From an uncultured bacterium (lineage in GTDB: Bacteria; Desulfobacterota; BSN033; UBA1163), in the NCBI GenBank assembly GCA_938002255.1, contig CALLAL010000009.1, forward strand, positions 124,001 to 188,000: a stretch of 64,000 nucleotides of DNA. Reading direction: 5' to 3'. Positions within the stretch are counted from its first letter, which is position 1. Each line of letters opens with the position of its first letter. The notes beneath the pieces were generated by a model. The model was not told the origin of the DNA. It saw only the letters and a program-made list of their open reading frames with translations, and did not search any database. Both the position numbers and the translations under genes were made by a program. This document shows positions 1-4,412 of this stretch, one piece after another.

Positions 1-630
1 CCTCTGTTGCAATGATTCTCTCGCCAGATGACGGACCTTCTCGGGGGCATCTCCCAATAATCTTTTTCCTCCAATGAGGGTGATTTCTCCTTTTCCGCCA
101 CTCTTGTCGAGCAGTCCTAAAAGGTTGGCTGAAATTTCGATCCCTGCTGGTCCTCCTCCAATGATCGTCAACCAGATCTTTTGCCTGTTTTGAATTGCCT
201 TCAACACAGCTTGCCGGGCTTTCAATAAATTAACCACGGGTTTAACTGGAAAGAGATTAGCTTCTGGTGCTTTTGTCACCTTTGCCATTGGCACTTCACT
301 TCCTGTGTTGAAAGATACGACATCGTAAGAGACTGTTTGACCAGAATCCAAAAAGAGTTGATGCTCCCTGGGGTCAACTTTGATGACCTTTCCTTGAATG
401 AATGTAGCCCCTCGATCCTCAGCTAACTTCTTGACATTAAATCGGACCTCCCAGGGCTGGTAGATTCCAGAGAGCATCCCTGGCCCCATCCCGGAATAGT
501 AATGATACGAAGAGGGACTGATTAGGGTGACTCGATGACCGATTTTTAAAAAACGATCCAGGTTCTTGAGCGAGGTCAAATGGGCATGACCTCCCCCCAC
601 AAAGACAAGGCATTTGCCCACGCGACTCAT
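1..630 (-). CDS. FAD-dependent oxidoreductase, SelD-N-terminal type (partial, C-terminus off the left edge)
   Basis: I translated the reverse strand by hand. The first 210 residues start MSRVGKCLVFVGGGHAHLTS, a dinucleotide-binding GxGGxHAHL signature at residues 11-17, and contain a second nucleotide-binding motif IIGGGPAG near residue 153. This is the pyridine nucleotide-disulphide oxidoreductase family that often forms the N-terminal half of selenide, water dikinase (SelD) fusions; whether a SelD domain follows cannot be seen because the gene leaves the window. The ATG at 630 follows AAAGGAGGTG with only two bases between AGGAGG and ATG; a GTG three codons later is an alternative. The reading frame also stays open upstream to about 846, but the motif position favours the start near 630. 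The gene lies downstream of the probable selenoprotein at 842-1003 on the same strand, which agrees with a selenium-related role. Confidence 0.75.
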   Translation of the reverse strand, partial: MSRVGKCLVFVGGGHAHLTSLKNLDRFLKIGHRVTLISPSSYHYYSGMGPGMLSGIYQPWEVRFNVKKLAEDRGATFIQGKVIKVDPREHQLFLDSGQTVSYDVVSFNTGSEVPMAKVTKAPEANLFPVKPVVNLLKARQAVLKAIQNRQKIWLTIIGGGPAGIEISANLLGLLDKSGGKGEITLIGGKRLLGDAPEKVRHLARESLQQR

Positions 631-841
631 CACCTCCTTTGTGTTGCTGGCCGAAGCGTGAAGCGGGACAGTTGTTTTTTCTGTATGTCTCCGAAACGAG
701 GGGAGCTCCATCTTGAAAAGTCTTTGAAGCCTTTTCTTTGGAGATGGAGCAGAGAGTATATGACTGGAAAAGGTTATCTTGCCAATCGCCTTCTCAAAAT
801 CTACGGAGATGGAATGAGGTGTGTCCCAATCTTGATTGGCC

Positions 842-1003
842 TTAACCTAAGGCCCAGATCAACCCTACCAGCGCGCCCAGGGGAACACTGACATAGGGGT
901 TACAGGTGAGGGCTCAAGCACTGCCGATGTTGCGGGTCAAAATACTTACAAGAAAACCTGCCAGCCCGCCGATAACTAATCCTAAGAAGATTTTCAAAAT
1001 CAT
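842..1003 (-). CDS. Probable selenoprotein, small DUF6132-like membrane protein (TGA at codon 30 read as Sec)
   Basis: An ATG at 1003, five bases after GAGAGG, opens a frame of 29 codons (MILKIFLGLVIGGLAGFLVS then ILTRNIGSA), meets TGA at 914-916, and continues in the same frame with ALTCNPYVSVPLGALVGLI to a TAA at 842-844. Both halves fit the small DUF6132-type membrane protein: an N-terminal glycine-rich helix, a central motif usually of the form C-P-(I/L)-T-x-N-P-Y, and a C-terminal GALxG helix. The TGA falls exactly at the conserved cysteine of that motif, as expected for a Sec-for-Cys exchange. No frameshift is needed. I could not fold a convincing SECIS hairpin by eye in the 40 bases after the TGA. 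The next gene downstream is a SelD-type oxidoreductase. Alternatives are a simple nonsense mutation or a sequencing error. The function of the family is unknown to me. Confidence 0.6.
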
Positions 1004-1069
1004 AAAAACCTCTCAAATAAGATTAGCACTCGGGTGGATATAAATCAAGGAGGGGTGAAATGATTTTTT

Positions 1070-2350
1070 TCATCTCCCCTGCTCATTTCCCAATCGTTCC
1101 TTTGAGGGGATGGCGTAGAAGATCACACTGGAAATGATGCAGAGAAAACAGATGAGAAAGGATAGATGGTAAGCTTCGGCGGGATAAGATGACCCCGATT
1201 TCGGAAAAGCTTCTATAACCTTTCCAAGAAAAGGCATGAACATACCAGCTCCAGCCATGGTGAAGAAATTGACATAGGTCATCACCGTTCCTGAAATCGA
1301 AGGAGGAAAGGTATCTTTGGCATGAGCGTAAATAGACATGACAAAGCCATGAAAGAAACCGATGAAGAAAAAGACAAGAGCAAAGCTCAGGGGATGTTCC
1401 ATGTTCCAGAGGCCAATCAAAGGGATAAGGCTTACGCCATAGAGACTCAATCCTGTCAAAGACACACGCTTGCGGAATTGAAAGAAATGATCGGAGAGAC
1501 GTCCTCCGAGGGGACTTCCCAAAATCACTCCAATGGCTAAAAGGATCAGGAGATTTCCTGCCTGAACCGGTGTAAATCCCTTGATGTAGATGAGATAAGG
1601 TCCTAACCATAATCCCTGAAGGCTGACAAACACACCGTACCTGAAGAAAGCCACCGCCCCAAATTGCCAGAAGACAAGAGATCCCACGATAAGCCGAATC
1701 GATTGGAGGATACCGATCTCTGGTTTATGTTGAGGGGATGAACCTTTTTCGTCAATTGTTTTTTCTCCTCTTAAGGCCCAGAAGACCAGAACGCTAAGGA
1801 AGATGGTGATGATCGCCGTGAAGAAAAAAGTCTTTCTCCATCCGATCGTTGAGGTAAGAAAAGCAAGAGGCGAAGCCGCCACGATGTTCCCGAAAGTTCC
1901 TACTGCAGAAATGAAGCCTACCAGGGTGGCAAACTGTTCTGGTGGAAATCTCAGAGTGAAGGTTTTAAATGCGCCCATTAACATGGGAGACATTCCCGCA
2001 CCGATCAGAATTCGTCCGAAGAGAACTGAGTGAAAAGAGTTTCCAAAGGCAAATAAAAAGGCTCCCAGGGCTCCGATCAGACAGGAAACGGACATGATCA
2101 TTCGTGGACCAATTCGATCCAGCATCGGTCCCATCGGGATTTGAAGCAGGGTGAAAGCATAGAAGAAGGATCCTCCGAGAAGTCCGAGCATCTCCGCACT
2201 GAGCCCAAGGTCCTGAATGAGATTGGGGGCTATAACCGCATTCGAAACACGGTAAAACTGAGAAAGGACAAAAAGCGCAGAAAGGATGGCAAAAATCAAG
2301 AAGAGCTGATAGGATCTGTTATGTTTTCTCATGAAGGGATTTCCATTCAT
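1070..2350 (-). CDS. MFS transporter
   Basis: This about 426-residue protein has roughly twelve hydrophobic segments and the major facilitator signature between helices 2 and 3 (GPMLDRIGPRMIM, about residues 75-88), with a matching GGRLSDHFFQFRKR loop at the start of the second half, near residue 285. It is a secondary transporter in the cytoplasmic membrane; the substrate cannot be told from sequence. Start choice is uncertain: a TTG at 2353, ATG at 2350 and ATG at 2332 are in frame and none has a strong ribosome-binding site. It is divergent from the semialdehyde dehydrogenase gene at 2443, with about 90 bases of AT-rich DNA between them, so shared regulation is possible. Confidence 0.88.
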   Translation of the reverse strand: MNGNPFMRKHNRSYQLFLIFAILSALFVLSQFYRVSNAVIAPNLIQDLGLSAEMLGLLGGSFFYAFTLLQIPMGPMLDRIGPRMIMSVSCLIGALGAFLFAFGNSFHSVLFGRILIGAGMSPMLMGAFKTFTLRFPPEQFATLVGFISAVGTFGNIVAASPLAFLTSTIGWRKTFFFTAIITIFLSVLVFWALRGEKTIDEKGSSPQHKPEIGILQSIRLIVGSLVFWQFGAVAFFRYGVFVSLQGLWLGPYLIYIKGFTPVQAGNLLILLAIGVILGSPLGGRLSDHFFQFRKRVSLTGLSLYGVSLIPLIGLWNMEHPLSFALVFFFIGFFHGFVMSIYAHAKDTFPPSISGTVMTYVNFFTMAGAGMFMPFLGKVIEAFPKSGSSYPAEAYHLSFLICFLCIISSVIFYAIPSKERLGNEQGR

Positions 2351-2442
2351 CAAGAAAAAAGAAACAATCTTTACAAGACGGTTTTCAGTATATTATTTAA
2401 TTTGAAAGTAAATCAAGATCATTTATTAAATGAGGAAGGAAG

Positions 2443-3971: not shown

Positions 3972-4412
3972 ATGGCTCTTACGACCTTTGGTGCCATTAT
4001 GGGATTTGCTTTGGAACTCATTGGCGAAACAGAGGCAACTTATAAAATTATGATTCAGAGAGCGAGACATCCTTTGCTGCAGGAACTCCTTTCTTCCTTG
4101 CTCGATGAGGCGAGGAAAAATTGTTCCCGGATGGAACAAATCCGGCGTGAGCATGTGACCGAGATGATCCTGGAACCTGTCACCGGACTTAACCGGGAGG
4201 ATTATCAAATCAGTCTAAATATAAACGATTTGGCAGAGGATGTGGACTTTTTAAAAGCGATCCTGATCCTTGAAGAAAGAGAAAGAAAATTCTTCCAAGA
4301 GGCATCTGCTAAAATGCCACTGCCTGAAACTGCAAGAATTTTCCGAAAAATCACTCAGAAGAAAGAAACGAATTTGGACCATCTTCGCTCCATCCAGTTT
4401 GCCCCTTTCTGA
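3972..4412 (+). CDS. Ferritin-like/rubrerythrin-like helical protein
   Basis: The 146-residue protein is almost entirely helical and has the spacing of a four-helix ferritin-like bundle: ALELIGETEATYKIM near residue 14, LLDEARKNCSRMEQIRREH near residues 43-61, and LILEERERKFFQEAS near residue 97. Glutamates and a histidine sit where diiron ligands would be, but the second half lacks a clear ExxH pair, so metal binding is uncertain. Start ATG at 3972 follows AAGGAG by nine bases. A hairpin (4417-4424 with 4431-4438, eight perfect pairs) follows the stop codon but has no T-tract. I do not recognise a characterised relative. Confidence 0.6.
   Translation: MALTTFGAIMGFALELIGETEATYKIMIQRARHPLLQELLSSLLDEARKNCSRMEQIRREHVTEMILEPVTGLNREDYQISLNINDLAEDVDFLKAILILEERERKFFQEASAKMPLPETARIFRKITQKKETNLDHLRSIQFAPF

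Follow-up and report, generated by a model that had tools for sequence, protein, structure and literature searches.

A catalogue published in 2026 lists 119 prokaryotic selenoprotein families (PMC13188914, Table 1). Most of these carry selenocysteine (Sec) in a UxxC or CxxU arrangement, and many have thioredoxin-like folds. The LULAXC motif selenoprotein TsoA (NF045695) has its Sec and Cys four residues apart. Bacterial SECIS elements obey a distance rule, quoted in the same paper, by which the apical loop lies 16-37 nt from the UGA. A further point of reference is PF19628 (DUF6132), a Pfam family of unknown function; we found no report of Sec-containing DUF6132 members in the papers searched, the one paper in which the string DUF6132 occurs being unrelated, and RefSeq product names may already flag part of the DUF6132-type relatives as possible selenoproteins.

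Here we describe a small gene in a window of 64,000 nucleotides, the whole stretch of DNA that was analysed, from an uncultured bacterium of the Desulfobacterota. Its family shares the traits of the 119 catalogued families, namely a Sec where relatives have Cys, a SECIS right after the UGA, a partner Cys nearby and a Sec-decoding host. In contrast to the UxxC/CxxU pattern and the thioredoxin-like folds of so many of them, it comprises predicted two-helix membrane peptides with UxxxC or CxxxxU, the former spacing being also that of TsoA. The family is not among the 119 of Table 1 in PMC13188914, and NCBIfam 20.0 (NCBIfam is named as the source library of TsoA) holds no model that matches the window protein. 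The comparison points to a new selenoprotein family that follows known rules but has an unusual membrane architecture.

The gene and its in-frame UGA

The features of the locus are collected in Table 1. The original prediction had placed a 53-codon frame at 842-1003 and left out the strand; the coordinates held and the strand is minus, a plus-strand frame over the same positions being ruled out by stops. Read from 1003 to 842, the frame translates as MILKIFLGLVIGGLAGFLVSILTRNIGSAUALTCNPYVSVPLGALVGLIWALG and closes with a TAA at 844-842. The claims that a TGA is the only stop before this TAA and that a ribosome-binding site precedes the ATG were both borne out on the minus strand, at codon 30 and as GAGAGG, respectively. 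As had been expected of gene callers, which were thought to miss or truncate the gene, a plain ORF listing with table 11 does not contain the frame. Of the 42 long frames in the window, 18 end in TGA, and since it is a usual stop in this genome, the TGA at codon 30 would represent local recoding and not a changed code. The promoter-like block further upstream was not flagged by a sigma-70 scan.

Table 1. Positions of the features described in the text, numbered from the first nucleotide of the window
Feature	Position	Strand	Remarks
Pyridine nucleotide-disulphide oxidoreductase, TIGR03169-like	1..711	minus	downstream gene; runs past window start
Hairpin GGCCUUA-GGU-UAAGGCC (GGCCTTAGGTTAAGGCC)	838..854	minus	conserved, spans stop codon
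Candidate selenoprotein gene	842..1003	minus (read 1003 to 842)	53 codons, Sec at codon 30, then TAA
Putative bacterial SECIS	860..902	minus	UGY-AAY-CCN stem with GGR-UUR, inner stem, apical loop ~32 nt past UGA
In-frame UGA, probably read as selenocysteine (U30)	914..916	minus	sole internal stop, codon 30
Ribosome-binding site GAGAGG	1009..1014	minus	purine-rich, 5 nt upstream of ATG
Promoter-like block CCTTGATTT-N13-TGCTAATCT	1020..1050	minus	by eye; similar in other same-family copies
Major-facilitator transporter	1070..2353	minus	upstream gene

A search of 59 related genomes with the window protein recovered full-length homologues in 17, the window's own genome among them, at 41-98% identity; each of the 17 carries a single TGA at the identical codon, far more than chance would give. 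Their alignment shows invariant Sec30, Cys34, Pro36 and Tyr37 together with several glycines. A profile search of 395 phylum genomes added more members in which the TGA is again present, and a search of the same genomes with Pfam DUF6132 yielded another set, with one TGA in each of the 12 matches above the curated cut-off. A wider profile, built from the window branch and the DUF6132-type matches together, detects the family in 41 of the 395 genomes; a lone in-frame TGA is the only stop in 42 of its 43 matches, the remaining one being a weak match with both TGA and TAG. No Cys occupies the Sec position among the translated matches of this profile, and no full-length match has TAA or TAG in place of the TGA. 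Dozens of genomes thus share an identical TGA, which excludes the wrong base at 914-916 that the original prediction had allowed for. Sec30, Pro36, Gly43 and Gly47 are invariant among 28 diverse members. In 15 same-family genes, pN/pS is 0.29 before the TGA and 0.28 after it (pS 0.69 and 0.49), so that the region downstream is selected as protein, and the coding similarity claimed for both sides of the TGA is matched by equal constraint.

A number of profile matches without TGA (L020, L054, L055, L067, L069, L072 and L076) look like chance fragments and were set aside, and a plasmid search gave no match. A partial match in another genome, also without TGA, was rejected as a degenerate fragment; this lookalike of the 3' half (L021, G006:C52:99-173) lacks the first half of the gene, and the same genome has an intact copy.

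How does the gene relate to DUF6132? The window protein itself does not match PF19628 (gathering cut-off 23.2 bits), and an f21 homologue of its branch reaches 16.2 bits, whereas several distant UGA-containing relatives in the phylum exceed the cut-off. The window branch and the DUF6132-type branch nonetheless align without gaps (hhalign probability 97.8%), at the same length and with the same two-helix layout, the Sec falling on the conserved Cys of PF19628. Scored against the Pfam profile, a DUF6132-type member with Cys at the Sec position reaches 48.5 bits, as against 41.9-44.1 bits with Ser, Ala, Gly, Thr, Pro, Val, Asp or Trp, an advantage of 4.4-6.6 bits over the eight other residues. 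In the f21 homologue, replacing Cys with Ser at the Sec position costs 4.4 bits whereas C34 to Ser gains 3.8, and on these scores it is the Sec, not C34, that matches the conserved DUF6132 Cys. Judged from the PF19628 profile, Sec30 would accordingly sit at the conserved Cys of that family. The window branch (UxxxC, TCNPY) differs from PF19628 in lacking the upstream Cys of the CxxxxC pattern; across 28 members the partner Cys lies at +4 of the Sec in the window branch or at -5/-6 in the DUF6132-type branch, never at both. The window protein is a separate UxxxC branch that scores below the DUF6132 cut-off. Of the earlier description, a TGA at the conserved Cys of a DUF6132-like protein, the aligned Cys is upheld by the profile and the swaps, but the window protein itself falls under the threshold for DUF6132.

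An AlphaFold2 model with Sec30 modelled as Cys (mean pLDDT 86, pTM 0.62) has helices at residues 2-26 and 36-52, and the modelled loop 27-35 between both membrane helices holds Sec30 and Cys34. A fold search of the PDB with this model gave no significant match.

RNA structure downstream of the UGA

RNAalifold was applied to 26 sequences, each taken from the UGA onwards. The predicted stem begins 11 nt past the UGA and pairs the third base of Cys34 through Pro36 (UGY AAY CCN) with a Gly-Leu stretch (GGR UUR) ~30 nt further on; over its seven pairs, 91% of cells are paired. Covariation amounts to 0.307 versus 0.163 in shuffles, and 0 of 500 shuffles scored as high, a comparison in which the sequences are related and the shuffles are therefore not strict probabilities. 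The signal is lost when the partner is shifted by 1-3 columns. The three most variable pairs are third-codon positions with synonymous changes, from C-G to U-A at Cys34/Leu and Asn35/Gly and from C-G to G-C at Pro36, so the pairing is not something that the protein demands. An inner stem lies within, and the apical loop, ~32 nt from the UGA, fits the 16-37 nt rule. Compared with synonymous-codon controls, 25 of the 26 genes are more stably folded (mean z -2.05); the window gene's own SECIS is weak by this measure (z -0.89, p 0.16). Its predicted apical loop, CCUG, is missing the usual G among the first two bases, and most same-genus copies have CGCU, with a G within the first two positions. 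The DUF6132-type relatives instead have a CCCUGGUCAGGG-like hairpin 19 nt past the UGA, whose loop, GGUC, begins with G. A simple search for hairpins with a G-starting loop had worked for some genes but not for the window gene, and the alignment-based stem took its place.

Most window-branch genes have another hairpin, GGCCUUA-GGN-UAAGGCC, which lies across the stop codon, 66 nt past the UGA. Codons 51-52 show zero synonymous change in 15 genes, and at locus L047, which has no stop codon there, a hairpin is still found at the same place. This structure was rejected as a SECIS or a terminator: its covariation does not go beyond that of shuffles, it has no T tract and its exact match occurs in one copy in this genome.

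Selenium machinery and gene neighbourhood

The genes for selenocysteine synthesis and insertion, which the original prediction had named as a check on its reading, are all present in the genome. It has selA (633 bits), two copies of selB over the cut-off, a tRNA-Sec with UCA anticodon (selC) and two selD genes, both with an in-frame TGA (L027, G000:C25:89603-90529; L028, G000:C36:22356-23276). In the searches for SelB and tRNA-Sec only matches above the cut-off were counted, because loose thresholds give matches in all genomes, controls included. The second selB (G000:C36:23373-25389; L032:13325-15389, minus strand) has as its neighbour an RNA that resembles tRNA-Sec and bears a GCA (Cys) anticodon, and adjoins a Sec-containing selD, yedF and a double-cubane reductase with an activase, a locus that fits the known selC*/SelB* system (PMC7609411).

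The gene following the selenoprotein frame had been described as an oxidoreductase of the SelD-fusion type. It is an oxidoreductase, but the fusion is not there: the protein is stand-alone and scores 282.1 bits against TIGR03169 (oxidoreductase fused to SelD), below the cut-off of 310. Its C-terminal TGA was considered as a second Sec and taken as a normal stop, because the known domain ends before it. Among the loci compared, such a TIGR03169-like oxidoreductase adjoins the selenoprotein gene in this genome only. The major-facilitator transporter, by comparison, adjoins it in 8 of the 8 same-genus copies examined, and in five of eight same-genus loci a gene downstream (at 28-29 nt in four) encodes an Fe/Mn superoxide dismutase whose twin-arginine signal, identified by eye, is of the SRRQFL type. 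Further afield, thioredoxin is encoded upstream in six f21 genomes, at a distance of 12-23 nt in five of them; in the other, the partial match overlaps the thioredoxin gene. Other neighbours are a rubrerythrin downstream in L017, a thioredoxin-reductase-like Pyr_redox_2 flavoprotein in L047 and a molybdopterin oxidoreductase in L019, with FMN reductase-type flavoproteins near several family loci. Across lineages these neighbours suggest a common theme of thiol redox and oxygen defence. Because the neighbours vary between lineages, a redox role would draw on this theme and not on one conserved operon. Elsewhere in the window, a plus-strand frame at 3972-4412, downstream of an aldehyde dehydrogenase, resembles rubrerythrin/ferritin-like proteins (family assigned by eye only).

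A probable membrane selenoprotein and its possible role

Based on these observations, we propose that the product of the gene is an integral membrane selenoprotein of 53 residues; the probability of about 0.9 that we attach to this, on the strength of sequence analysis, applies to its being a selenoprotein. The small membrane selenoprotein of the original prediction gains support from the two predicted membrane helices, the conserved TGA, the SECIS and the Sec machinery. Insertion of Sec at the UGA is well supported by the conservation of both sequence and RNA structure. SelB would bring Sec-tRNA(Sec) to codon 30, the UGA, guided by the SECIS hairpin in the codons that follow. Two glycine-rich helices, as modelled, would span the membrane, and the short loop that joins them at its surface would carry Sec30 and Cys34.

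Could the UGA be an ordinary stop, so that the product is a 29-residue peptide and the remainder is chance sequence or a pseudogene? UGA does serve as an ordinary terminator in this genome, and a start and a ribosome-binding site are in place for the upstream part by itself. However, selection constrains the codons past the TGA as strongly as those that precede it, four residues including the Sec itself and three beyond it are invariant across the 28 diverse members, and TAA or TAG never replaces the TGA in a full-length match, which together make this explanation extremely improbable. A different departure from the proposed reading would have the UGA decoded as cysteine by selC*, a tRNA-Cys that resembles tRNA-Sec, together with a dedicated SelB*; related bacteria are known to have such a system. 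The second selB beside a tRNA-Sec-like RNA would lend itself to such a scheme; a selC* tRNA-Cys with a UCA anticodon has been described (PMC7609411), and PMC8762117 lists among its references a study on how a pair of this kind recodes the Sec UGA codon to cysteine. In this genome, however, selC* has a GCA anticodon, matched to UGC/UGU and not to UGA, and a canonical tRNA-Sec(UCA), selA and selD are present. We regard cysteine decoding as very unlikely.

What might the selenoprotein do? Our tentative preference, held at somewhat less than even confidence, is that its most likely activity is that of a membrane-bound selenol/thiol redox centre, a suggestion prompted by the neighbour theme of thiol redox and oxygen defence. 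Such a centre would cycle between a selenol plus thiol and a Sec-Cys selenenyl-sulphide, with thioredoxin or a flavin oxidoreductase as electron donor and an oxidised substrate at the membrane as acceptor, and might serve in oxidative-stress or disulphide control in anaerobes. The protein might instead be a selenoprotein that transports a metal or a sulphur or selenium species across or along the membrane in the manner of MerT-type proteins, with no part in a redox relay. The small two-helix architecture with Sec and Cys at the membrane is compatible with a carrier, Sec forms exist among MerT-type proteins, and a major-facilitator transporter lies upstream throughout the genus. Yet most of the neighbours in the various lineages are genes for redox reactions and oxidative stress, and neither Pfam nor the fold search matches the protein to transport proteins, so that a carrier seems unlikely to us. 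Returning to the redox centre, we also entertain a more elaborate and decidedly speculative version, on which we would not wager much: a widespread, apparently Sec-only membrane redox family in which the partner Cys has moved between two places about a fixed Sec, and in which the cis signal has two parts, the classical SECIS and the stop-codon hairpin, the latter aiding Sec insertion or the final termination.

The gene adds a candidate selenoprotein family that standard annotation misses or truncates, and its compact membrane architecture is unlike the thioredoxin-like folds common in known selenoproteins. As the family was never found with Cys in the genomes sampled, Sec may be chemically required. 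The finding would assign a function based on Sec to a Pfam domain whose role is unknown, and may connect that domain with thioredoxin and with the defence of anaerobes against oxygen.
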